A model generated the notes under the pieces. That model was not told the DNA's origin. It searched no databases and saw only the letters and a list, made by a program, of their open reading frames with translations. Below are positions 15,042-47,269 of a stretch of DNA of 64,000 nt, piece after piece. Origin of the DNA: Styela clava. Taxonomy: Eukaryota; Chordata; Ascidiacea; Stolidobranchia; Styelidae. Every line of letters starts with the position of its first letter. Within the stretch, counting starts at the first letter, position 1. Made by a program: the position numbers and the translations under genes. The stretch is from assembly GCF_964204865.1 (NCBI RefSeq), contig NC_135255.1:11561135-11625134 (forward strand), written 5' to 3'.

Positions 15042-16199
15042 ATGAACAGTTTCTTCAAATTAGGGAGAAGGCTAACTAACTGTTCTCGTGAAATTAGTGT
15101 ATTTTCAACCTCACAACCAAATGGAACAAATCATGCTTGGCATAAAGCCGTCTCAGAAGCTGAGAAAATTGTTGGATTTCCGACGTCTTTTCTAAGTTTA
15201 AGAGCTTTATTGAGTGACGAGTTTGGTGGACTTGCATTACACCTAAGAAAACTGATAAGCACCAAACATCCTTTACTAAATACAGCAAGAGGCATCATGT
15301 TCGATTCTAAAAATTATTTACAAACAAGAGGATTGGTTGTGTTACTTATTTCAAAAGCAGCTGGAATCACAGATATAGAAAGTGATTTTACCTCAACAGA
15401 GATTTACGAAAAACAACGTGCTTTGGCTGAAGTTACTGAACTAATTCATGTTGCATTCCTCGTCCATAGAGGCATTGTGGATGTGAATCAGATTGTTGGG
15501 AATGTAAGTAAAACAGATATTGACTTTGGTAACAAACTTGCAGTATTAGGAGGTGATTTCTTACTTGCTAATGCATGTACTGGCTTAGCAAAACTGCAAA
15601 ACACTCAAGTTGTAGATCTCATGTCAACATCGATTAAAGATATATCAAGTTCACTTGTAATTCTACCAGAAAGTGATTCAGTTTGTGATGTCGAAATGCT
15701 TTCGGGACTTCCTATGAACGAAAATAGCTGGAAAGAGACAGTTCACCTTTCAGCTGGAAGTTTATTATCGAATGCCTGTCGCTCAGCGATGTTGCTTGCA
15801 TCGTCAGATGTTAAACTTCTCGAATCTGCGGAAAAGTTTGCGCATCATCTTGTACTCGCTCAACAAGCTCGACACGATTCTTTGAGATTTGATACATTAG
15901 AAGCCTTGGAACAAAAACCTAATTTTTGTTGCCTTTGTTCACTGCCTGTAGTATTACTAGCAGAACAAAATGGTGGACTCGAATGGATAAAAAAATTTAC
16001 TATTGATGAAGGTTTAAAGAATGTTAAAATAGATGTTGAAAAATTATTCCACACTGTAAAAAATGATCCAAATGCTTTGCAACAATCACATAAATTGTGC
16101 GCAAATCATGTTGATAAGGCTTTAAATTATTTGCATGTATTTCCCCAAAGCGAGTCTAAGGATGCTTTAGTCAATATACTATTTTCTGTTAAGGAATAG
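15042..16199 (+). CDS. PDSS2: PDSS2, regulatory subunit of polyprenyl diphosphate synthase
   Basis: A single exon of 385 codons (human 399). The family pairs with PDSS1 in mitochondria to build the polyisoprenoid tail of ubiquinone. Diagnostic stretches are SEAEKIVGFPTSFLSLRALL (residue 39 on), HPLLNTARGIMFDS, LQTRGLVVLLISKAAG, LAEVTELIHVAFLVHRGIVD and FGNKLAVLGGDFLLANAC. The two Asp-rich DDxxD substrate motifs of trans-prenyltransferases are absent. That is normal for this non-catalytic subunit. The N-terminus (ARG- and SER-rich, few acids) looks like a mitochondrial presequence. The start has a strong context (GCCACCATGA). COQ3 begins 30 bp after the stop on the same strand, so the two may be made from one polycistronic transcript. 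No coding intron, unlike vertebrate PDSS2. Confidence 0.95.
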   Translation: MNSFFKLGRRLTNCSREISVFSTSQPNGTNHAWHKAVSEAEKIVGFPTSFLSLRALLSDEFGGLALHLRKLISTKHPLLNTARGIMFDSKNYLQTRGLVVLLISKAAGITDIESDFTSTEIYEKQRALAEVTELIHVAFLVHRGIVDVNQIVGNVSKTDIDFGNKLAVLGGDFLLANACTGLAKLQNTQVVDLMSTSIKDISSSLVILPESDSVCDVEMLSGLPMNENSWKETVHLSAGSLLSNACRSAMLLASSDVKLLESAEKFAHHLVLAQQARHDSLRFDTLEALEQKPNFCCLCSLPVVLLAEQNGGLEWIKKFTIDEGLKNVKIDVEKLFHTVKNDPNALQQSHKLCANHVDKALNYLHVFPQSESKDALVNILFSVKE

Positions 16200-16229
16200 A
16201 ATAAAACTGTATAGAATATAAGCATTGGT
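16200..16229 (+). promoter_or_regulatory. 30-bp intercistronic gap with AATAAA and AG sites
   Basis: The gap between PDSS2 and COQ3 starts directly with AATAAA (16200-16205), then holds AG dinucleotides (in TATAG and ATAAG) 8-17 bases before the COQ3 ATG. This is too short for a usual promoter. It could serve both as the poly(A) signal of the first cistron and as the trans-splice acceptor of the second. That role is inferred, not shown. Confidence 0.5.
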
Positions 16230-17150
16230 ATGAAGCGATTGTTTGAATTATGTCATCGTTATTCCTTTCTTATACGGAAATCACACCAGACGATTGTGAT
16301 AAGAAGCGATAATATTTTCACGACAATATGGCAAAATAATTCTGATTATCACCAAAACGAAAGTTCCACAAATGACACAAACACCCATGACCATGAAGAA
16401 ACAAAAAAGTTTTCGGATTTATCTACCAATTGGTGGGATATAAACGGTCCAATGAGAGCACTGCATTCAATGAATAAAGTACGAGTACCTTTCATAAGAG
16501 ATTGTTTGATCTATGAAGGATATGGAAATGGAGAAATATATACAGACAAACCTTTGAAAGGTATTGATATACTTGATGTTGGATGTGGCGGTGGTATTCT
16601 TACTGAGCCTTTAGCAAGATTAGGAGCCGACGTTGTAGGAATAGATGCATCAGAAGAACTGATTGAAATTGCGAAAAAACATAGGCTTCCAGAACTAGAA
16701 AACTTGCAATATCTCAATGCATTGGTGGAGGATATAGCTTTAGTGGGATCTTTAAAATTTGATGCTGTTGTGGCGTCAGAAGTTATCGAACATGTTTCAA
16801 ATCCACATTCATTCATACAAACTTGCTCGAGTGTACTCAAACCAAAAGGGTCCATGGTGATCAGTACTATAAATAAAACTTTACAATCATATCTTCTTGC
16901 CGTCAACTTCGCTGAGCGAGTTTTGCAAGTTGTACCCCGAGGTGCTCATGACTGGAATAAATTCATAGCGCCAGAAGAAGTTATCGAATATTTAGATCAT
17001 TGTGATTGCTCTTTTAGAAAAATTCATGGTATGCTATATAACCCGTTTTGTGATGATTGGTCGTTTGTTAGTAGTACCAATATGAATTATATTATTCATG
17101 CTGTTAAAAGACAAGATATTGACAATGACCAAGATAATGATATAGATTGA
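16230..17150 (+). CDS. COQ3: COQ3, ubiquinone biosynthesis O-methyltransferase
   Basis: A single exon of 306 codons. COQ3 carries out both O-methylation steps on the CoQ ring, using S-adenosylmethionine at the inner face of the mitochondrial inner membrane. The SAM site is clear: ILDVGCGGGILTEPLARLGA (residues 114-133), the acidic end of strand 2 in VVGID (135-139), and the family block VVASEVIEHV (180-189). ALHSMNKVRVPFIRD (residues 77-91) is the usual COQ3 lead-in. The first 35 residues (MKRLFELCHR...) are basic and hydrophobic, as in a presequence. The C-terminus GMLYNPF also matches. AATAAA follows at 17155-17160. It directly follows PDSS2 in the same pathway. Confidence 0.95.
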   Translation: MKRLFELCHRYSFLIRKSHQTIVIRSDNIFTTIWQNNSDYHQNESSTNDTNTHDHEETKKFSDLSTNWWDINGPMRALHSMNKVRVPFIRDCLIYEGYGNGEIYTDKPLKGIDILDVGCGGGILTEPLARLGADVVGIDASEELIEIAKKHRLPELENLQYLNALVEDIALVGSLKFDAVVASEVIEHVSNPHSFIQTCSSVLKPKGSMVISTINKTLQSYLLAVNFAERVLQVVPRGAHDWNKFIAPEEVIEYLDHCDCSFRKIHGMLYNPFCDDWSFVSSTNMNYIIHAVKRQDIDNDQDNDID

Positions 17151-18522
17151 GTAAAATAAATTTCTTGGTCTTACAATAATGATTAATAATTCTGGTTTTT
17201 CGTTGTTCATTTTCTTTTATATCAAATGATTTGATATACTTTTGGTAAAAAATGGAAATGAATCGTACACTATTTCATCACAGTGGAACCAAATGAGAGC
17301 TTGTCACATTTCAAGATTTTGGGAAATCACATTTTCGTAAATTATAGATCTATGCAGCCAAACCCAAAAAGGATGTGAAACATTCACTAAAACTAAAACA
17401 GGTAGAGCTTTAATACCCAGACCAAAAACATGGACCATGGTCCATAATGACAGAATCCCAAAAAGGCAATTTGTAAAAAATGTGATATAAGCTACTTTGG
17501 TTTTACAGTGGTGAATTTTTCTAATGTCTAACTTAATAAGGCCTAATTTTACTTCAAAGTTCAAAATGGTATATTTCTGTGTACTACCTTCTATTAATAA
17601 CAAGCTATGTAATGTTCTGAAATAGAGAATTCAGAGTTGATATACAAGCATGATTGTATGTAACATATCTGTTATTAAAAAGTAGAATCATAAAATTTTA
17701 TTTTCGCATTCACAAATACTCAATATTCTTTGGCTTAATCTGCATCTTGAACAAAATGTCATGGCATCCAATTTCTATTGTTTTTTACAGATAATTATCA
17801 CCACCTTATTAATAGTTTATATACTATTGTGAATATATGCTTCTATAGTAGGAAGAATTTTTATCATTTCAAAGAAGATCAACCTCATACATATTCAGCC
17901 AGAATTCAAAGGATTGTATCTTGATAATTCAGTTGTATCGAAGTAGACTCTTATCAGCCAAGAAAAAAACGTATGACTTTTTTGACTGATCCAATTTTGG
18001 CAGAAACAAAATCAGAAATTTTATCTATTAACTCTACACTCCTACATAGATGCTGATAGAAAAGGCCGATAGAAATCATATTTTAGTAAATGACTATAAT
18101 CATGGGTTGAAATACAGTCATTCTGGGACAATTTTAAGACCCCGATGGATGCCATAATATAAGCGTCCGTTCAGTCGAGGGCAATCAATAAACTGATTTA
18201 GTCACTTAGACTCATTTTTTTCAAAAACCATCTCAACTCAATTTAAAGAATGATTCAATAGGGTGGTTTGACCACACAGATGAAGTCCTACTCAGTATCT
18301 CAACTTGAGTGGTAGCAAAATGATATCTATTCCAGTTAATTAAGATAGGTAAAATGTTACCCTAAGAAGCATATGTTATCCTTTCATAAGATATTTATCC
18401 AACCAATATGAAATGATTTTTCTCGGTAAAGATTGAGAAATCATGTTTGTAAAGTAGACTGTGTTTTTATTTCAGTACTTGAGTGTCAAATCCTGATTGC
18501 GTTTACTCAGTGTTATTGAAAA
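17151..18522. other. Spacer between COQ3 and AUH
   Basis: AT-rich sequence with the COQ3 poly(A) signal at its left end (17155-17160). A pyrimidine tract ending TTTATTTCAG (AG at 18474-18475) lies 47 bases before the AUH start and looks like a 3' splice acceptor. No exon with a matching donor was found between the two, so it may serve a 5' UTR intron or trans-splicing. Confidence 0.5.
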
Positions 18523-19413
18523 ATGTTGCGATCTTGGATAGGACTCTTAGGTAGGCCTAAGGTGATCACATCTCAACTGTTGAAAAAGTCAAGATACTTA
18601 TCAACGGCAGCAAATGATGAACTTGTTGTCCAACAACTTGATGGTGATGACGAAGGAATTGTTGTTCTCGGTTTAAATCGACCTAAAGCAAAGAATTCAT
18701 TCAGCAAAAGTTTGAGTCAAAAACTGACTCAAGCGATCGAGGACTTACAGTACGAGGAAAAATTGAGAGTGCTTATCATTAGAAGCATGATCCCTGGCAT
18801 ATTCTGCGCTGGAGCTGATTTAAAAGAGAGGGCGACAATGCCACAAAGTGAAGTTGGTCCATTTGTATCTCGTCTTCGAAGATTATTATTCGACATGCAG
18901 AACTTTGCAACACCAACCATTGCTGCAATAGATGGCGCTGCTCTCGGAGGTGGTTTAGAAATGAGCTTAGGATTCGACATGCGTATTGCTTCTAATAATG
19001 CTTCATTGGGTCTTGTGGAGACCAAACTTGCTATCATTCCAGGAGCTGGTGGAACGCAAAATCTCACACGACTTATCGGAGCGAGTATGGCAAAGGAAAT
19101 GATTTTTACAGGAAGAGTCGTAAAGGGAGAAGAAGCAAAAACCCTTGGTATTGTGAATCATGTTGTCAAGCAAAATGAAAACGGTGATGCTGCGTACTTG
19201 AAATCCCTTGATTTAGCTCGTGAAATTCTTCCTCAAGGACCAGTAGCATTGCGTATGGCAAAACGAGCAATAAATTGTGGCTCGGAAATAGATATTTCTA
19301 ATGCACTTGCCTTTGAGCAAGCTTGTTATGCACAAGTGATCCCAACCAAAGACAGAATTGAAGGGCTCACAGCGTTTAGAGAAAAAAGGAAGCCAAAATA
19401 TACAGGAAGTTAA
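18523..19413 (+). CDS. AUH: AUH, methylglutaconyl-CoA hydratase (crotonase family)
   Basis: A single exon of 296 codons (human precursor 339). The enzyme hydrates 3-methylglutaconyl-CoA in mitochondrial leucine breakdown. Crotonase hallmarks are present: the oxyanion-hole region GIFCAGADLKER (92-103), AAIDGAALGGGLE (134-146) and LGLVETKLAIIPGAGGTQ (162-179). The two acidic residues expected at the active site are E146 and E166, 20 apart as in human AUH (E189/E209). The first 30 residues are basic and Ser-rich, as in a targeting peptide. Overall wording (EVGPFVS, QGPVALRMAKRAIN, CYAQVIPTKDRIEGL) favours AUH over ECHS1 or ECHDC2. The helix that carries the human RNA-binding lysines is changed (K62 kept, Q66 and Q70 at the next two positions). 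Confidence 0.92.
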   Translation: MLRSWIGLLGRPKVITSQLLKKSRYLSTAANDELVVQQLDGDDEGIVVLGLNRPKAKNSFSKSLSQKLTQAIEDLQYEEKLRVLIIRSMIPGIFCAGADLKERATMPQSEVGPFVSRLRRLLFDMQNFATPTIAAIDGAALGGGLEMSLGFDMRIASNNASLGLVETKLAIIPGAGGTQNLTRLIGASMAKEMIFTGRVVKGEEAKTLGIVNHVVKQNENGDAAYLKSLDLAREILPQGPVALRMAKRAINCGSEIDISNALAFEQACYAQVIPTKDRIEGLTAFREKRKPKYTGS

Positions 19414-20533: not shown

Positions 20534-21760
20534 ATGTGGCGCCTAGTTTACCGTTTAAAAATAAGCAAAAGTGAAAATTATTTGGGCAGAGTTCTACCTT
20601 CTGGATCAGGTGTTTTACAATCAGTAAATCAAGATAGATATTATCATGGAAATAGGAAATTCATGAAAGTGAGATCAAAGCATAAATCAAGGAATCTTTT
20701 TGCACCCGTGGAAAACGTTCACGCCGTTCGCAGGGGTGAAAGATTCAATAGAAGATACACTGATAAATATGGAGTCAGATCTGATAAATTTGTCCCACCT
20801 CATAAATTACCTGCCCCACGCTGGAATTGGGATTATGACTTGACCAAAAAATCTGCATCAACATTGCACGGTGTTCACTCTGATAATGTTGTTAAATTCA
20901 ATCAAGATATTGTAGATAATAACCCACTCAAAGATAAACAATGGGAATTGGGAACGTGGGAACCCTGGTCGAAAAGATGTGGTGCTGTTGGGATTAAGCT
21001 AGGCGTACAATACATGTGGCTAAAAAATGGTACCTGTGTTTCTTCAACGCTCATTCAAATATTAGATTGTCATGTTATTAAATATTTTTCAAAAGAAGAA
21101 TACAATGGAAGAATTGCTGCTGCACTTATTGGTGCAAAAAATGCTAGTCCATTCTACAGAGGAGAGAAATATCACCAATTCTGTTTAGACGCTGGTGTAC
21201 CAGTCAAGGAAAAATGTTTTCGCTTTCTCATTACTGAAAATGCCCGTCTAAAACCAGGAACACCTATTTATGCAACTCATTTTAGAGTTGGCCAAAGTGT
21301 AGATCTTTTAGCTAAGTCTATTGGTTATGGTTTTGCGGGAGTTATGCAACGTTGGCATATGAAAGGAGGCCCTGCGTCACATGGAGCTACAAAATGGCAT
21401 AGAAGAATAGGATCACTTGCAGATCGTTCTGGACGCGTTGTGAAAGGCAGGAGAATGCCAGGGCAACTTGGTGGCACATATGAAACAGCGTATGGTCGAA
21501 GAATTTTCAGAATCAACACAAGATATAATGTTCTTTATGTGAAAGGAAGAATCCCAGGGCATATTAATACATTTGTTAAAATTTCGGACACTTGTAATAA
21601 AAAATTACAACCTCGAAATGAAGATGAAGTGTTAAAACATATTGGTCCATTTCCAACTTATCAACCTGAATTAGTTGATGAAGAATTACCAGAAAACATT
21701 TATGATGATTCTGTTTTTGATTTTGATAATCCATCTATCGTGTTAAGGGAAGATTCTTGA
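20534..21760 (+). CDS. MRPL3: MRPL3, mitochondrial large ribosomal subunit protein uL3m
   Basis: A single exon of 408 codons (human 348). uL3m is an early-assembling protein of the mitochondrial large subunit near the peptidyl-transferase centre. The uL3 signature region is at residues 250-316 (GQSVDLLAKSIGYGFAGVMQ, then KGGPASHGATKWHRR and MPGQLGG). Upstream are KNGTCVSSTLIQILDCHVIK and KPGTPIYATHFRVGQ. FPTYQPELVDEELPENIYDD ends the conserved part and is specific to the mitochondrial form. The first 90 residues are basic (MWRLVYRLKISK, RKFMKVRSKHKSR), consistent with import. The ATG lies four bases after an acceptor-like AG. No coding intron, unlike the vertebrate gene. Confidence 0.94.
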   Translation: MWRLVYRLKISKSENYLGRVLPSGSGVLQSVNQDRYYHGNRKFMKVRSKHKSRNLFAPVENVHAVRRGERFNRRYTDKYGVRSDKFVPPHKLPAPRWNWDYDLTKKSASTLHGVHSDNVVKFNQDIVDNNPLKDKQWELGTWEPWSKRCGAVGIKLGVQYMWLKNGTCVSSTLIQILDCHVIKYFSKEEYNGRIAAALIGAKNASPFYRGEKYHQFCLDAGVPVKEKCFRFLITENARLKPGTPIYATHFRVGQSVDLLAKSIGYGFAGVMQRWHMKGGPASHGATKWHRRIGSLADRSGRVVKGRRMPGQLGGTYETAYGRRIFRINTRYNVLYVKGRIPGHINTFVKISDTCNKKLQPRNEDEVLKHIGPFPTYQPELVDEELPENIYDDSVFDFDNPSIVLREDS

Positions 21761-22415
21761 TTGTGATTTATTTGCTTTATTATCGATATCACAGAAAAAT
21801 TGAATCGCTTTTACTTGGTAATTTTTGGTAAAAAAGTTTTATCCCCCTGATAAGATTTTTCTGTAATGTTATACAAATTTATCTTCGAAGAATTTGATGT
21901 TGCGAACAGTAGAAAGTAATTTTCAAAATTGCATTTAAATTTGATCACTTCATTTCAAATTTGAAAAAAGCAAATAATTCGAGTATGCGACTCATTTTCC
22001 CATCATAAGTAGCAATTTGTAATAAAAATCATAAGCTGTTTTGTGTAATGGTACGCTTCTCTTTTTTTGGCCTAATGTTATATTTAAAAATCGTACATTG
22101 AATTGTATAGCTCAATCGCTTGACAGACAAGGTCCAAACGTTTTGATAAATATTATTGTGGGCATGTGATTCGTAATTTTAACCTATAACTTTTTATAAG
22201 ATAGGGGCCCAATTCAATTTTAACACTATCAAAATCTATTTCAAAAACATTTAAAACTCTAAAATTCAAATTTGTCGCTCCCAGTTTTGCAGTGAGACTT
22301 ATTAACAATGATTAGGCATTACCATAAAACAATCATCTTGTGAATGACAATAATTTTGCGTCGCTTCATTTTTCTTTTCAAACTTTGAACCTTTTTTGTA
22401 TTTCAGCTCTGCATC
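21761..22415. other. Spacer between MRPL3 and PPIL4
   Basis: AT-rich. AATAAA at 22021-22026 may end MRPL3 transcripts. The right end has a strong pyrimidine tract TTTTTTGTATTTCAG (AG at 22405-22406) nine bases before the PPIL4 start codon. Confidence 0.5.
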
Positions 22416-25400
22416 ATGTCAGTAATCATAGAAACAACGATAGGTGATATTACTGTTGACTTATTTCTTAAAGAGCGTCCCCGAACTTGCCTCAATTTTC
22501 TGAAACTATGCAAAACAAAATATTATAACTACTGCGTATTTCATTCTGTACAAAGGAATTTTGTTGCACAGACTGGAGATCCAACAGGTACAGAATATTA
22601 ATAGCAAAGGTTTGCTACCAGGCTTATAGTACCGTAATATGTGTCGTGCACAATTGGTAAAAAGCAGTGGAATTGCCTAAACTATATCCGGTAGTTTGCT
22701 TCTTAACAGTTATGCATGTATCACAAGATATGTTGATGATTTCTCTGTTATTGTTTGTTTCCCCTCATCTGTTATTTTACATTTATATATTAAGAATAAG
22801 GGCTGTTGTATTGAAGTAAGCCTAGTTTCACTGGATACACATTTTCAAATTTTTTAAGAGTCGAAAATCTGAATTCGTCGGAATTGCAGGCTTTCAGAGG
22901 TGCTAGAATAAATCAAACTTCCAAGCTTGCATACGCCAAAGTTTTTGTTAAAATATTTGGCTCTGCTAAGAATGCTGTTTTACGATTTGAATTGTATCAT
23001 TATTGATTAGAATACCTGTACTTCCTGAATGAAAGTGATGTGGTAGCCACGTTTACGATCTAAAAAATAAATGTGTCATATTTTCAAAATATTTGCAGGT
23101 GCTGGTAGAGGAGGAGAATCTATATTTCAGTCACTTTATGGAGATCAAGCAAGATATTTTGATGCTGAAGTAACTCCCAAGATAAAACACCGAAATATTG
23201 GTATGAAGTAGACAATATAAATAAACAAAGTTAATTCGTTGGAATATGATTTTTTGTTAATAATTGATTGATGTTAGGGAAAAAATTTTCTAATTAGTTA
23301 TTTAAAATCCATTTCATTTTTAAAGAGTAACGGCATAAATACTTTGTATTGCAGGTACAATTTCAATGGTCAATGATGGAAATGGACAACACGGTTCACA
23401 GTTTCTAATAACTCTTGGTGAAAATCTGGATTATTTAGATGGTGTCCATACTGTGTTTGGAGAAGTTGCTGAAGGTAGATATGACAAGCAATAAAGTATA
23501 TCAGAATTTACTTTTCATTCGAAAATGTCTTTCTAAGTATTTTTTATTTTATGATAGACCAAAAATTAGTTGGGGAACATTTGACAGAATAATGTTTATC
23601 TAAATTAGTATGAATTAATAAATTTAGTTTCTACGTATTCACAATTGTCTTGAAGAATTTTGTTTGTGGAACAGACCCATTTTATAATTGAAAAGAATAT
23701 TTTGGAATGTATTCGGAATACTAAATTATTCTGCCCGACTTGTTTCTAGAATTTGATGTAATGGGTGTTTTCCAGTTTTAGAAGCTTCAAGCAAACTTTT
23801 CATTATATAATAACGTAATTATTGTAAGATTATGAATAATGTTTGTTACCTTGTTTTTATACAGGATTTGATGTTTTAACTAAACTAAATGAAGCATTTT
23901 GTGACAAAGAAAATCGTCCCTATAAAGATATACGAATCACACATACAGTTATATTAGACGATCCGCTGGATGACCCGCCTGGTAATGATTTATTGCATCG
24001 CTACTATTGATTTTACTACACCCCTAATTCATTATAAATACTAATAAACGTATCATTTTTGATAGAAAATATGGTACCTAAATGAAAGTTTTATTTACGA
24101 AATTATAACTTTCTCAAATCATCCGCTTCTCAATTTTATAGACAAAAAATTTTGTTTCAATTTCAAAGGGATTTTGTTGAAATTTATATTAAATATAAGA
24201 TTAATAAGTAATAGGGACGTCTGAATTCTCTCACATATAATTAGATATCAGTGGCTGCTTGTACAGTGCCTTGTTCAGAGTGGAAGGCAGAATAGGTATC
24301 GTATAATAAAATTCATGCAGTCAAGTCCTACATTTTGGTGTGAGGGCATAAATTTTTTTAATAATTTTTATTTTGAATTGAATTGTTTATTGTTATCTAC
24401 ACTTAACTACAACCTCATAGTAGCCTAGTGGTTTTTAATCAGGGACCTGTGAGTTTACTTTCCAATCCGAGAGACTATATTATTACATATGTATATTGTT
24501 TCAATATACCAAATCAAACACATGGTATAATATAATCTTATAATAAGTGTTTTACTAGTGTTCACTGGCATATTTTATGTTAACGAAGATAACATATCGA
24601 TCGTATCATATAATATATGTATAATCAGTTGCAGAGGGGTTACTTGAGCCTCTGGAGTCGTGAATTTTTATTGGGGTTTCGCTTCACCAAAATAGTTGAA
24701 AACCACTGCCAACCAGTTACAGTGTTCGTAAAGTTTCTTGGATTGAGAAAAAGTTTTTATTTTTAATTTTCTCACAGGTTTGATTATTCCTGATCGTTCC
24801 CCTGAGCCGACGAAAGAACAACTTGAGAGTTTGTTGAGGATCGGAGCAGATGAAGAAATTGATGATACAAAAGGATTGACTGAAGGGGAATTAGCGGAAC
24901 GCGAGGGAAAAGTTGAGGCAGAACATCAAGCACAGGTCACAAGAACTATTTTATTTCCATCATGTTTATGATAGAAATTTCAGTATCGAGGAAGGATATT
25001 AAGACAGTTCCTGTCGTCACAATCACATATTCGCGTGTAGTTGGTATTGGAACAGCTGGCTTGTTATTTTTCCTCATGCGCAGTCTCTAAATTATATGAA
25101 CATAGAAAAAAATGACATCCATGCAAGTACTTGGTTAGGCAACATTCAACATTGTAGAATTTGCTTTATCTGTAACGTAGAAATGGTATCGTCAATTCTA
25201 AATTACTTCACTAAGGACTAATTTTTATGCCCTCCCTTATCCAAAATAAAATATGTTTCTGATGTTTTGATATTTTTGTATTTTTGAAGGTTTTAGAAAT
25301 CATAGGAGATTTACCAGACAAAGATGTCAAACCTCCAGATAATGTTTTATTTATTTGTAAACTCAATCCTGTTACAACAGATGAAGATTTAGAAATAATA

Positions 25401-27416
25401 TTCTCAAGGTATAATATTCAGCAATAGTGAACTATCTTTTCAAATTAAAGAAAAAAACAATCCCATGAATATTCCTGTGAAAATATCTGTTGACTCTTTT
25501 CAAAGTAAAAGTTTTTAGTATAAAATTAGGCAGTGTTACATGGAGTTATAAATTTTTTAATCCAAAAGGTGACTGGCGACACCAATCAATTTTTATAGCT
25601 GTAATGGTTGCCTTTGGCATCATGGACTACTATTGTGTTCTTAAATTTAATTAACGATATTCCCATGCATTAGACTATTTTATAGGTTATTTATTAAGTT
25701 TAATTCTTTAATCTACTATAGCTCACATGTGTGGCTCCTCCAGAGGTTCTGCAAGTTTACACTCAAATCCGAGAGTCGATATGAATATTGTTTAAAAATG
25801 TAATCAAATGCCCATTATCTTTGCCGCCATTATCAAACTTTTGAGACCATCTTATTACGCTTGCTCGTACATTTCTACTTACAGCCTTGCAAGTTTTGGC
25901 CATGAAAACCACTGGCCAGAGCCTCATTCAAAGTTTGCAAATTCTTTTATCCACTGTGTTCTGTTTTGATATGATCATTATACCGATTAAATCTTTACGG
26001 TAATCTGTTTTTAGATTTGGTAAAATTCTGTCTTGTGAAATAATAAGAGATTTCAAGACAAGTGAATCACTACAATATGCTTTTATTGAATTCGACAAAC
26101 CTGATGAATGTGAGAAAGCTTACCTGAAAATGGATAATGTATTAATTGACGATCGAAGAATCCATGTCGATTTCAGTCAGTCAGTTTCAAAGATACAATA
26201 CAGAAGAAGTGTAAGTTTTATTCATCACATATTTAACGAAACCAACACTTTTGTGACCAGGGGTGTGGATTCTAAGTGAAAACTTCATACTTTTACTGGT
26301 GATCACAAAACGCATTTCTTTTGTATCATACATACAACCTTCGTAGCTTGAGGCACTTTTTGGAGACCCTCAACGGCCTCAAGACTCATCATGAAAACCA
26401 TGATTTCCGGCCTCTGGCATGACCCCCTAGCTCTTACTCGGCAATCAGCAATTTTGGAACCCCCATTTGAAAATTCATGATCAAGTTCACTAAGCGATTT
26501 TAAGGGTCTATTAAGGAAAGGTTGCATAAGCCAAAGTTTTTGTCACAAAAATTTGAGCTGGAGTCTTTAAGTCGAACATTTTTACGCCGGGAGTCGTGAG
26601 TAGGAATCAATTTTTCTTAATTGTGAATTAATTTTTTTAATTTCAATTATGAATTTTCCTGGATTCCGCAGCCCTGTTCGTAACAAGATTATTTCATTTC
26701 ATGCCAATCAAAAATCATGCAGTACTTCTGAACCCTACATTATTTATTGTCATATACTCAAAGAAGATTATGTATAGTTTATGGAGTATGATATGTGATC
26801 ATTTCTTTCTAGGCTATTTATAATGCACAAGGTAAAACCTTTATTAATGTGAACTGTCTGTAAGTACTTGCCTGATATTTATATGTCCTCGGTAGCCAGT
26901 TTAGTTGATTACCCAGAAATACATTGGGCTGTTGTTTCTTCATAAGTACCTTTGAAACTGGATTTGCAATTGTATGTCAGGCCCAAAAAGATGCATTGCC
27001 AAAATAACACATTATCTTAATAATAACCTCAAATATTGTTTTAGAATGATCCAAAACTTGACACAAATGCAAAGAGAGATAAGGTATCGCATGAAAATTC
27101 ATCACCAGAGCGAAAACACAAAAAGGAACATAAGAAAAGAGAACGAATTGAAAAGCAACGTGGACAAAATAAAAACTATAGATCGGATGGAAGTTCTGAT
27201 AATGAAGTTCGATGCGGAAAGCATCGCAAACGGCGATCACATAGTCCACATACAAAATCATCCAAGTCTGTGAAGAAACATACCAGGTCACCTTCACCCA
27301 GAAAGAGTGAAAAACATTCAAAATATGAAAAAGATAATTATTCAAGACATCGGCATGATGATTCAGGTTATAAAAAGTCAAAACATAGGAAAAAGCACAG
27401 CAGCAAATACGATTGA
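22416..27416 (+). CDS. PPIL4: PPIL4, cyclophilin-RRM protein of the spliceosome
   Basis: Eight coding exons join in frame to 451 codons (human 492): 22416-22587, 23099-23200, 23355-23474, 23865-23981, 24778-24935, 25290-25408, 26015-26210, 27045-27416. The protein has a cyclophilin domain (residues 1-165; [48 protein letters not shown]). The conserved linker [11 protein letters not shown] and [10 protein letters not shown] follows. An RRM at about 240-315 has RNP2 LFICKL and RNP1 YAFIEF, and the tail is rich in Lys, Arg and Ser. The Trp typical of active cyclophilins is Tyr here, as in the family. It acts in the nucleus with the splicing machinery. Introns hold hAT fragments. A 19-base sequence at 26813-26831 has good splice sites but would break the frame. 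AATAAA at 27726-27731 is a plausible end. Confidence 0.95.
24426..24708. mobile_element. Possible old hAT MITE in a PPIL4 intron
   Basis: TAGTGGTTTTTAATC at the left and AGTTGAAAACCACTG at the right are imperfect inverted ends. The left interior (ACTTTCCAATCCGAGAG) is echoed at 25757-25775 in the next intron but one (ACACTCAAATCCGAGAG). No matching 8-bp flanks were found, so borders are uncertain. Confidence 0.4.
25722..25915. mobile_element. Possible relative of the 24426 element
   Basis: It shares the AATCCGAGAG block with the 24426-24708 repeat and ends near TGAAAACCACTGG. It lies in the PPIL4 intron after exon 25290-25408. Borders are approximate and no duplication is seen. Confidence 0.3.
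26258..26676. mobile_element. Non-autonomous hAT element, 419 bp, in a PPIL4 intron
   Basis: The ends CAGGGGTGTGGATTC and GATTCCGCAGCCCTG are imperfect inverted repeats of the CAGGGCTGTGGA type common in animal hAT families. The flanks TTTGTGAC (26250-26257) and TTCGTAAC (26677-26684) agree at 6 of 8 positions, which fits an aged duplication. A 74-codon open frame inside shows no transposase features. Confidence 0.7.
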
Positions 27417-42070: not shown

Positions 42071-45000
42071 ATGATGAAAGAAAATGCAGAAAGTTTATTT
42101 GAAAAGTTTTTAAAAGCATCAACATGTAAAGAAACTCTTCAAACATTCCATTTGTTATGTGCTGAGGTTAAAGTTCAATACCCACCACCTCGTAATGCTG
42201 CTTATGACCACATCACATTTTACACAAGATTGAAACAAATCTTGGGGTCTCATTGGAAAGCGCAATCATTGTTCACCAAACTTGATAAAAAATTCAACGA
42301 TGATGTTAATTTTGAAATACGCAAAAGTTCTCGTGAAAGAGATCGGGCAGCAAGAAATTTCAATGTTCTCATTGTGGGAGCAGGTCCGTGCGGTCTTAGA
42401 ACTGCTATATTCACAACACTGCTTGGTGCAAAAACAATAGTCATTGAGAAAAGAGACTCGTTTTCAAGAAACAATGTTTTACATTTGTGGCCTTTTACCA
42501 TTGAAGACCTGAAGGCTCTTGGCGCGAAAAAATTTAATGGTCGTTTTTGCTCTGGTGCAATAGACCATGTATCAATTCGTCAGTTACAGCTTATTCTCAT
42601 GAAAGCTGCTTTGATTTTTGGTGTTGAAATTCATGTAAATACAAGTTTCTGTGATGTCATAGCGCCAAATATAGAAGGTTCAACCACATGGAAAGCCAAA
42701 ATTGAGCCAAGTTCAAGTTCAGTTTCAGACTTTGATTTTCATATGGTTGTTGGAGCAGATGGACGCAAGAATACGCTCAAAGGTTTTACAAAAAAGGAGT
42801 TCCGAGGATCTTTAGCTATTGGAATCACTGTAAATTTTATCAATAAAAAGACAAGTGAAGAAGCGAGAGTTTCTGAAATAAGCGGAATAAATTTCATTTA
42901 CAGACAAGAATTCTTTCGGGAATTGAATAGATTGCATAATATTGATCTTGAAAATATTGTCTATTACAAGGATGATACTCATTACTTTGTCATGACGGCT
43001 CGTAAAAAGAGCTTACTCGAAAGAGGAGTATTTAGAGAATGCCTGGATGAGGCTTATCATCTTGTACATAGCAATAACATTGATCAAAGTGCTTTGTTAC
43101 AATATGCATTAGATGCTGTAAATTTTTCCACCGAGAACAAATTGCCTGATTTAGAAGTTGCCATAAATCATTATGGCCTCCCTGATATCGCACTTTTTGA
43201 TTTTACACGCATGAAATCATCTGTAAATGCTTCTATGTTCAGAGAAGTCAACGGAGCAAAACTTTTACAAGCCTTAGTGGGGGATGGTTTGATGGAACCA
43301 TTTTGGCCAAAAGGTACTGGTATTGCCAAAGGTTTTTTGGCAGCTTTTGATACATCATGGATGTTACGACAGTGGGCTTTAGGGAAAAACCAACAATCTG
43401 ATAACTCATTCGAATTGTCGTTACTTGCGGAAAGAGAAGGACTGTATCGTGTTCTCGCACAAATAGAAAGCAACCAACTTGTTCAAAAGTATTCACTATT
43501 TTCCATTGATCCAAGAACAAGATACCAGTTTGTACCCAGAAAAGTTCCTGTTGGGAAAATAAAAGCATTTTATTTGTCTGGCGACAAAGGTGCAGAACCC
43601 CTAGTTGACACAGATACCGTTGATTCTGCTATAGTCCCCCGAGGACTCACTCGAAATGTATCATTCGTAAAATCGAATAAACTACAGCAATGGTGTGAAA
43701 GGGTGCTTCGTGAATCTGGCTCATCTTTGACTGTGACCAATATGAGTTCTTCATGGAGAGATGGTCATGTTCTCTGTTCGATCATTAATTACTATAGACC
43801 TGATGTTCTTGATTTAGCTGATTTGCGAGAAGAAGATGCAGAATTCAATAATCAACTGGCTTTTGATATTGCTGAAGAACACCTTGGTATCACTCCTATC
43901 ATGTCTGGAAAAGAGATCGCTGAATGTGAAGTTGTTGATGATCTTTTGATGGTTACTTATATATCACAGTTCTATGAAATTTTGAAGAGTGAAGTACCGG
44001 TGAAACCTGTTAAAAGGGTTTCAGATATAATAGCAACACCACCGGAGGAAAGTTTGCCTCCCAAAATGAAAAAGAAGTCACCTCTTGGTCTTCTTGTTAG
44101 ATTTTCACACCAGATTAAAAGAAAATCAGCGCATCGTGGATCTTCGAAAGAATATGAAGTGGATAGAAAAGACAAAGAGAAATCAAAAAAGAGAAAGAAA
44201 ATGGATAAAGATGCAAGTGTGGCTAATTCTGATTCACAAGTGGTTTTGACTAAGGCTACATTGCCAACTATTGTAGATGAAGACAAAGAAAATACTGTAG
44301 TTATGAGAGACAAGTCGAAAGATTCACCAACACCCGGTGTCCGTAAAAACACATCAAACCGAATCAGTGCGCTTGGTGCTCAATTGATATCACAGTTGGA
44401 ACAAAATTCTGATGTTCCTCCTCAAAGAACTACCACTAGCACACAAAAAGTATTAAAAAGCCAATCAAGCAGTGTTTGTTACTTTTGTGGAAAAACTGTT
44501 TATATCGTAGAGAGATTGAGCGTCGAAGGATTATTTTTTCACAGAGAATGCTTCAAGTGCTCTCACTGCCAAACACCTTTACGTTCCATGAATTATAAAC
44601 GGGATCCTGATAGTGGGAAGTTTTATTGTAGTGTCCATTACTTTGAGAATGCGGAATATCTCAAAACAGGACAGCAATCTACATCTGAGGAAGCCGCAGC
44701 ATCACACCAATCTATTAAATCCCCAGTGATTCATGTTGAAGAAACAGAGGAGATCGACTTACTCGCGATGGGTGACCTTTCTCCAAATAGACCTGATAAT
44801 TTGAATCTATCTGTTCCCACAATAGAGAATGGTCAAGTTATTATGCGACGAGATCTCACTCCAAAGCGAGGAGACATGGCTAAAATTGCTCTTACCTTGT
44901 CACCAGTTCCGATTAAGGTGGAAGAAGAGTTCTTATATCAACATAACATGAGATGTAGTATTAATTCAGATAACGAAAGTGACAGTTTTTCTTCGGAATC

Positions 45001-47269
45001 TGAAGCTGAAGAATTAGATGAAATTGCGATCGGTTTAAGGGACCACTCACCACAAGAAATGTTTTCAGAGTATTATAACAAGCCAAAATCTGTGGATGCA
45101 AATAAAATTACGGAAGAAACTACTAGAACCACAGACGGAAGTACGCTGTTGTCGTCAGAAAGTGATGGAGATGAAGATATCAGTTCATTATCTAGTACAT
45201 CTGCTGATGATACGAGAGAAAACAAAATCATAAAAGAAGAAGATGAGAAAGATAGTGTTTCTTTATCTATATCTTCACCTGACGAAGATGAATATGATCA
45301 CACTCAGCAAATAGAAAATAACAAGAAATTGGCGAAACAAAGGACTTTATCTTCATTGTCATCTGACGAAAATGAAATTGAAATTGAAATTTTGAAAATT
45401 GCTGAAGAAAAACCGATGAAAACACAAAATACAATTTCATCTTCATCTAGTGAGGCTGAAGTTGATCAACCACATGAATTAGAAGATAATGAAGCACAAG
45501 CTAGCGCATCTGAAAATCTAGATAACGCTAGCACAGGTGAAAAAATGGATGAAAATGCAATGCCTGAATTTGAAGCTGATGTGGTGCGAACAAAATCTCT
45601 GTCAACATCATCTAGCGACCCCCAAGAGGAGACAGTGGAATTTCCGAGTAAACATGCCCAAAAAGATGATTCACCAATGGAAGATGCAATGTCAACATCA
45701 TCCTCTGAACCTGAAGAAGTCGAAATTGAACAAGATACTTCATTTGGTACAAATTTTAGAAAAAGTACAATTCTACCTGTTGCAACTAGTTCTGCGAATA
45801 ACGATACTAGTGTATGGGTCTCTAATCTTGAAACAGGTGATGTTTCGAACGCCGAGAGAGTAGAAAAAGTTTTCGAGCCCGAAATTCAGCAAGTAGTTGT
45901 AGAAGATGTGATCATGTCGGATGATATAATGTCTTCTCCGAAACTCGTCGGTATAGTTGAAACTGATGGTCCCCGAAATGATCTAACAGTTGCTTCAACT
46001 CCCAAACAGTCTAGTTTAGATAATGATGTGTTTTTTACTCCATGTGCTGATCGCACAGGAAATGAGAGCTTTTACACTGTAAAATCTGATCAGACTTCAA
46101 GTCAGAATATTTCTTTTGACATGGACACTAGCGACGCGACACTTGACACCACTGTAACCTCTGACACTGTGGGTGACTCAGTTATCACAGACTCTCCTTT
46201 ATCAACTTCATCTAGATCAGGTTCTGGTAGAAAATTACCGGAAACCCCAAAAGGTACTGTTCGAAGAATATTACCAGTTATTCCAAAAATTCAACATTTA
46301 GAAGCTTTGTCACCGACCGGTGACGTTTCACCACGGCAGCGAGAACGAATCGAAATGAAACTGAAAAAACATGAAGATCGTGTGATGGAAAGAATTAGAA
46401 AAATGAAGCTTGGTGTAAATGAAGGAAAGCATGATACTTCCTTTTCTAATGATACAAAGGTACATAGAGAAAAGAAGGCAGCTGAGCGAGATGACTTCGT
46501 AAATCATGTTCCGATGCTATTGCAGAAACGCAATAATGATTTAATGAAGAAAAAACATAAGCGTGGAAAACCTGACCACGAACATAAAAAAGCTTTGTTT
46601 GCTTTTGGGCAAAAGAAAAAGGCTATGAAAGAGAAAAAAGATATTCCAGCTCCTAAAATTATGAGCCCTACACATCGTTCTTCACAAAGGCGTAATTTAT
46701 CTTCTTACACACGAGAAGAACTTGAGGAAAGAGTGTCTCATCGTGTACGCATCGCTGCACAGCGACAAGCAAAGGAAGCTGAAAGAAAAAGAATGGCTAG
46801 AGCTCTCATCATTCAAAGTCAGCTTCAAGAAATTGATGAAAGACGTAAACAGTTAGAAGAGAGAGGAGTGAAACTAGAAAAATTACTTCGCGATGAGAAA
46901 AGCCAAGCTCGTCAGCGAGAGAGTTCACTTCACATGCATGAGTGGTTTAAACTTGTGCAAGAAAAAAATGGGCTTTTGCGTCGAGAGAATGAGGTAATGA
47001 TATCACAGAGGGAGTTACAACTCGAAGACAAGCAAAGTCGCTTACAACAGGTTTTGCGAGAAAGAATGTCTATCGATGATTCAAAGAAATCGACTGAAGA
47101 ATTAGCTAAGGAAAAAGAAATTCTTTCTGAAATGATGGAAATTGTCGACCAACGTAATCAATTAGTAGGTTTAATGGATGAACAAAGAGTCCAAGGAGCA
47201 GAAGAAAATGCAGACATAGAGCAAGTATTATTACACAAATTTTTAGAAACCACTCCCAGCCCAATATGA
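42071..47269 (+). CDS. MICAL: MICAL, actin-oxidising flavin monooxygenase
   Basis: One uninterrupted exon of 1732 codons. MICAL proteins oxidise actin methionines with FAD and NADPH and so disassemble filaments. The flavoprotein domain (about 1-490) has GAGPCG at 103-108, the block [42 protein letters not shown]-type residues near 313-332, and the FAD DG motif [14 protein letters not shown] (D405). A calponin-homology domain covers about 535-640. A LIM domain at about 803-858 has the CxxC...HxxC...CxxC...CxxH zinc ligands. A long acidic, Ser-rich linker with repeated SSSS-acidic clusters (near 1090, 1120, 1176 and 1206) follows. The C-terminal bMERB coiled coil (about 1540-1725) is the Rab-binding part. 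Domain order equals MICAL1-3. A 5.2-kb coding exon is odd, since vertebrate MICAL genes have many introns. Confidence 0.96.
   Translation: [1732 protein letters not shown]

Follow-up and report, generated by a model that had tools for sequence, protein, structure and literature searches.

A candidate PDSS2-COQ3 operon of the tunicate kind in Styela clava

For Ciona, PMC2760879 lists 2,909 genes in 1,310 candidate operons, which are defined as same-strand genes with gaps below 100 bp. In the account given there, single-exon genes make up 38% of the operon genes, and the first gene of the operon has a single exon in 60% of cases. Intercistronic distances have a median of 1 bp for Ciona and of 31-33 bp for Oikopleura, and these operons are resolved by a single general leader (PMC7986045). 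The same source names spliced leader SL1-dependent operons of C. elegans, which have no intercistronic regions. By the Ciona and Oikopleura criteria, an intronless pair of genes separated by 30 bp would be a typical tunicate operon. Such a pair is described here for two genes of coenzyme Q synthesis in Styela clava.

The gene pair and its tunicate host

The window, which is the whole analysed stretch of 64,000 nucleotides, contains the PDSS2-type gene and COQ3 head to tail on the + strand, 30 bp apart. Each is intact and intronless in the list of open reading frames. The features are given below in window positions; the acceptor scores come from a generic metazoan model written for this analysis.

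15042..16199, + strand: PDSS2-type gene (decaprenyl diphosphate synthase subunit 2), upstream member, intronless, 385 aa, ATG to stop
16192..16193, + strand: best candidate trans-splice acceptor AG, TACTATTTTCTGTTAAG/GAATAG, score 2.95, inside the last codons of PDSS2
16200..16229, + strand: intergenic gap of exactly 30 nt, ATG absent, one in-frame TAG at 16212
16200..16205, + strand: AATAAA poly(A) signal, immediately 3′ of the PDSS2 stop, first bases of the gap
16212..16213, + strand: AG in the gap, within the in-frame TAG (16212-16214), acceptor score -4.47, poor
16221..16222, + strand: AG in the gap, acceptor score -6.51, poor
16230..17150, + strand: COQ3 (UbiG-family O-methyltransferase), downstream member, intronless, 306 aa, ATG to stop
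17155..17160, + strand: AATAAA, beginning 5 nt past the COQ3 stop
18523..19413, + strand: enoyl-CoA hydratase, AUH-like, intronless, 1,372 bp downstream of COQ3
20534..21760, + strand: Ribosomal_L3-family gene, intronless, read as mitochondrial MRPL3

The two frames cannot be attributed to chance, because window positions 22001-27000, a 5-kb stretch assumed to be non-coding, yield no open frame longer than 137 aa in three frames when their single bases are shuffled 200 times. COQ3 and PDSS2 share their reading frame, with in-frame TAG codons at 16197 and 16212 lying between them. The gap falls below the same-strand limit of 100 bp used to recognise tunicate operons in PMC2760879. Among sequences sampled from both strands of the 264 kb around the pair, the AATAAA motif is present in 4.2% of 30-mers and in 0.5% of 8-mers. 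An AG within the gap is by itself not informative. The remaining gaps between the recognised frames of the window range from 1,120 to 12,739 bp, and intron-bearing genes may sit between these frames.

The identity of the downstream protein is given by the NCBIfam UbiG model TIGR01983, where the COQ3/UbiG equivalog cut-off is passed (262.7 bits vs 102.95); its nearest solved relative is 4kdc. The upstream protein matches the Pfam family polyprenyl_synt (PF00348, 3.8e-18, 66 bits vs a cut-off of 27). Its top NCBIfam model is the solanesyl diphosphate synthase TIGR02749, at 135.5 bits and under the equivalog cut-off of 383.2; among the equivalog models hit, none is made for PDSS2 and the cut-offs are not reached. 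Among solved structures, geranyl and solanesyl diphosphate synthases are nearest to it in sequence. The DD..D motif is absent from the 385-aa protein, which has no DD anywhere, and a member of the polyprenyl synthetase family without DDxxD motifs is taken here as diagnostic of the PDSS2 subunit. The upstream gene is probably PDSS2, a name which the motif loss fits and which is less firm than that of COQ3.

In the whole genome, a search with the PDSS2 protein gives a single match at E <= 0.001. For COQ3, one of the 15 matches is full-length, and the other 14, partial and at 27-39% identity, appear to be other methyltransferases. Both genes are single copies and therefore the genome's own genes, rather than retrocopies with a surviving parent. 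The lack of introns in both genes is what a retrocopy of one dicistronic mRNA or of two separate mRNAs would display. Against such an origin, neither gene has a second copy in the form of an intron-bearing parent, uninterrupted genes are common in the genome, and the sequence past 17150 shows no poly(A) tract, which makes a retrocopy highly improbable.

Intronlessness is not special in the Styela clava genome. Further single-frame genes in the window are MICAL, Ribosomal_L3, enoyl-CoA hydratase and rhomboid, and at least 13 mitochondrial carriers in the genome have their three repeats inside one open frame. The MICAL gene (window 42071-47269) encodes 1,732 aa in one unbroken open frame with Pfam FAD, CH, LIM and bMERB domains; in vertebrates, MICAL has many exons. 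Between 15042 and 21760, the window shows a run of four same-strand intronless genes, PDSS2, COQ3, AUH-like and MRPL3-like, in which only PDSS2 and COQ3 are tight. The AUH-like gene is too distant to count as an operon member. The names AUH and MRPL3 are presumed for the two downstream genes, and all four genes presumably have mitochondrial roles. In the human genome, PDSS2 and COQ3 are presumably both located on 6q, and given this location their proximity is possibly an old linkage. Scans of the window for Rfam families, at gathering thresholds, and for tRNAs gave no matches.

The genome assembly comprises 376.6 Mb in 379 contigs. On contig C9, a cellulose synthase exon with the QxxRW signature (Pfam Glyco_trans_2_3 1.9e-16, Cellulose_synt 8.6e-7) is followed about 1.8 kb downstream, on the same strand, by a GH6 exon (Glyco_hydro_6 9.9e-11). 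The gene is of the tunicate type, intron-bearing, with GT2 and GH6 parts. According to PMC10334666, the GT2-GH6 protein is the tunicate CesA, among animals reported only from tunicates, and apart from it no GH6 is known in animals. The tunicate host is thus supported by the succession of CesA exons and a GH6 exon on one strand. A COX1 family search of the assembly, meant for the mitochondrial code, gave no match. The initial annotation had guessed a tunicate, and had given the identities, coordinates and intronlessness of PDSS2 and COQ3 together with a 30-bp gap starting with AATAAA; the former is borne out by the CesA and GH6 exons, and the latter by the frames and family matches.

Acceptor sites, the search for a spliced leader and other tight pairs

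The downstream gene of a leader-resolved operon would need an acceptor site close to its start, and the initial annotation had proposed the AGs between 16210 and 16229. As a calibration, the best AG before each clearly exonic cellulose synthase peptide was taken, and these cis acceptors (n=9) score from 1.06 to 8.01. Both gap AGs lie below this range, at -4.47 and -6.51, which does not support the proposal. The AG within the stop codon of PDSS2 scores -2.78. The AG at 16192-16193, six bases short of the end of the PDSS2 frame, falls within the cis range with its score of 2.95. No other AG close to the start of COQ3 is acceptor-like. The site is suggestive only, because 9.5% of random ATG-upstream windows in the 264-kb region, coding parts included, score as high. 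PDSS2 contains 25 ATGs after its own start, and as the last of them lies at 16162, the first ATG of an mRNA beginning at 16194 would be the COQ3 start. This candidate acceptor lies inside PDSS2, and trans-splicing there would therefore come at the expense of the PDSS2 end of that pre-mRNA.

In the 60 nt before the starts of 19 single-frame genes, acceptor-like AGs are somewhat enriched (Mann-Whitney p = 0.003); genes with 5′ introns may be among the 19, and some of the sites may belong to such introns rather than to trans-splicing. The score exceeds the background 75th percentile at 10 starts, and the other nine, including PDSS2 and mTERF, are not above background. The enrichment persists when COQ3 and mTERF are removed (17 starts, p = 0.005). 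A smaller set of 16 starts, with three carriers omitted, gives p = 0.0006, so the fuller count of 19 is the weaker one.

The leader RNA was sought by its likeness to that of Ciona. The exact Ciona leader, as an 18-mer plus GT, is absent from the genome, and its 13-base core occurs 36 times vs 37 in the control, with no clusters. At two mismatches, 160 matches are found vs 63 in the control; at least 69 of them come from one tRNA array on contig C3, and without these 69 the count is 91 vs 63. The leader end combined with a donor and an Sm motif gives 138 matches vs 315 in the control. The positions considered were those of 100 of the 160 matches at two mismatches and of 100 of the 138 with donor and Sm motif. 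Within this scope the searches revealed no SL RNA gene of the Ciona type, and they would all miss a leader that has diverged. That no such gene was found is a real weakness of the spliced-leader reading.

Two repeated elements were encountered in these searches. The first, at C3:24847563-24961794, is an array whose units measure about 496 and 633 bp and contain Rfam tRNA genes, of Leu and Ala types as judged by eye. Every unit read holds ATTCTATTTGCATAAG, one base off the Ciona leader and without a GT donor. As an SL RNA, this array was rejected, since the 2.8 kb read shows a tRNA cluster with ATTCTATTTGCATAAG followed by TT, with neither a GT donor nor an Sm motif. The second is a 3.4-kb tandem unit on contig C5, of which three copies were seen (7971285, 7974688 and 7978092), with AAG/GTATGT...AGCTTTGG and AAG/GTATGTCTAATGTATATTGTAAAAGCTTTGG. 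Donor-like and Sm-like sites are present in it. The total for the pattern is below its control, the three copies are identical over 220 bases and therefore provide no conservation signal, and the likeness of the upstream sequence to the Ciona leader is confined to ATAAG. The element is a weak candidate for an SL RNA gene, a lead rather than evidence.

Tight pairs of genes were also considered outside the window. In 343 kb scanned for frames of at least 90 aa with gaps up to 150 bp, the recognised cellular gene pairs are only PDSS2-COQ3 and URM1-mTERF, and the other pairs were judged by eye to be retroelement-like or unidentified. Retroelement-like tandem frames also lie past the window end, at window-relative 78182-81424 and 93287-97521, with gaps of 11, 103 and 35 nt, and such frames are a source of false operon calls. 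The pattern AATAAA-N16-AG is uninformative, with 60,457 occurrences in the whole genome vs 73,404 for the reversed control.

The URM1-mTERF pair (contig C4, about 11166352-11167803) was reached with a URM1 probe chosen as a Ciona operon gene and is not a random sample. Both of its genes are intronless and lie 6 nt apart, in phase. The gap contains neither AG nor AATAAA, and URM1 starts right after the acceptor-like TATTTTACCAG. The Ciona URM1 is described in a different operon, DTL-URM1-CHERP (PMC2760879); here the mTERF frame comes after URM1, whose upstream sequence was seen to 1.5 kb.

Both tight pairs bear on the possibility of one dicistronic mRNA, in which translation of COQ3 after PDSS2 would depend on reinitiation or on internal initiation. 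The two gaps are too short or acceptor-poor to be processed easily (30 nt with scores of -4.47 and -6.51, and 6 nt with no AG), the Ciona-type searches revealed no leader RNA gene, and both pairs have their two frames in phase, a weak point with n=2 pairs. However, AATAAA right at the PDSS2 stop suggests a separate 3′ end, and the 25 ATGs of PDSS2 after its start make plain scanning to COQ3 not plausible. Reinitiation after a frame of 385 codons is rarely efficient. Moreover, the known tunicate operons, as described in PMC2760879 and PMC7986045, end as monocistronic mRNAs. A dicistronic mRNA is on this evidence quite unlikely.

The mitochondrial carriers served as a control, with 1,000-base flanks read for 10 of the 13 one-frame genes. 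For none of these 10 intronless carriers does a recognised gene lie on the same strand within 100 bp, before or behind it. Four carriers (c3, c7, c8 and c9) are followed within 100 nt by the start of a short frame without identity, of 50 to 96 aa. Most of the longest one (c7, gap of 28 nt) was compared with Pfam and gave no match. Downstream of carrier c6, the first exon of a COMPASS-Shg1 family gene lies about 475 nt further on.

That tight neighbours are not the rule among the carriers agrees with the view that PDSS2 and COQ3 are independent genes, where COQ3 would have its own promoter in the terminal part of PDSS2 and would be capped in the conventional way, as does the failure of the Ciona-type searches to find a leader RNA. 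A COQ3 mRNA relying on scanning must begin after 16162, and an independent promoter would therefore have to place its start within 67 nt of the COQ3 ATG, in the last codons of PDSS2 and the gap. The overlap with the PDSS2 coding end and the poly(A) signal argues against a dedicated promoter, and independent transcription of COQ3 is considered unlikely.

A model for a probable operon

The two genes most likely form a single transcription unit, as in the operons of tunicates. With a probability of about 0.6, PDSS2-COQ3 is a two-gene tunicate operon resolved by spliced-leader trans-splicing. An ordinary operon of the tunicate type is the best reading because leader-resolved operons are common in tunicates, and it is this lineage that suggests the resolution by a leader. 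We infer co-transcription, a leader and the position of the acceptor, most likely 16192-16193. A single promoter upstream of PDSS2 would give rise to a pre-mRNA spanning both genes. The PDSS2 mRNA would end by cleavage after the AATAAA at 16200, and trans-splicing of a spliced leader immediately before the COQ3 ATG would supply the capped 5′ end of the COQ3 mRNA. If the acceptor at 16192-16193 is used, the PDSS2 and COQ3 mRNAs would be alternative products of one pre-mRNA.

A stricter form of this model is doubtful. In it, each pre-mRNA would be either cleaved to yield the PDSS2 mRNA or trans-spliced to yield the COQ3 mRNA, never both. If true, this would give a chordate a built-in switch by which either the tail of coenzyme Q is made or its ring is methylated. 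Alternatively, and just as doubtfully, tight pairs such as PDSS2-COQ3 and URM1-mTERF would be translated from truly dicistronic mRNAs.

For the pair itself, the operon proposed in the initial annotation is retained as the best reading, without its named gap AGs as acceptors and without a Ciona-type leader RNA, which was not found. That annotation also regarded a coenzyme Q operon in an animal as notable; it is less surprising in view of the approximately one fifth of Ciona genes placed in candidate operons in PMC2760879. The pair looks like a fresh example of a known arrangement, not a new kind. In a literature search, no paper was found on COQ3 with PDSS2 as an operon. To our knowledge, animal operons seldom join genes of the same pathway. 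The C. elegans clk-1/coq-7 operon contains a coenzyme Q gene, and its partners are not known to be coenzyme Q genes. A coenzyme Q operon in Styela clava, if real, would be a clean case in which to ask whether operons of tunicates co-regulate function or only save promoters. The position of the candidate acceptor inside PDSS2 and the 6-nt URM1-mTERF pair further raise the question of how near-abutting tunicate genes become separate mRNAs.

Relation to known operons and gene pairs

The tunicate tandem pair fuhc sec/tm of Botryllus (PMC3691228) resembles PDSS2-COQ3 in its layout; rare spanning transcripts are described for it, and its gap is reported to be without evident promoter elements. It differs from the present pair in its 227-bp gap and multi-exon genes, and the same report describes no leader found on the second gene. 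A tight pair alone is therefore no proof of resolution by a spliced leader.

The SL1-dependent operons of C. elegans, as presented in PMC7986045, would share with the candidate operon abutting genes and resolution by a general leader, and differ in phylum and in the leader itself. Among tunicates, the 30-bp gap is close to the median of 31-33 bp given for Oikopleura dioica (PMC7986045). Unlike Oikopleura, with a genome reported as 70 Mb (PMC4122922), Styela clava has 376.6 Mb, and elsewhere in its window the recognised frames stand more than 1 kb apart.

The closest comparison is with the operons of Ciona intestinalis (Satou et al. 2008, PMC2760879; SLOPPR, PMC7986045). The Ciona operons differ in that most of those reported have downstream genes with leader-bearing 5′ ESTs (1,158 of 1,599; PMC2760879, PMC7986045). 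In Styela clava the searches for a Ciona-type leader RNA found none, and the only plausible acceptor of the pair sits inside the upstream coding sequence. In the features described by these sources, PDSS2-COQ3 is like the operons of Ciona in its tunicate host, in its single-exon genes on the same strand less than 100 bp apart, and in the compact 3′ end with a poly(A) signal.
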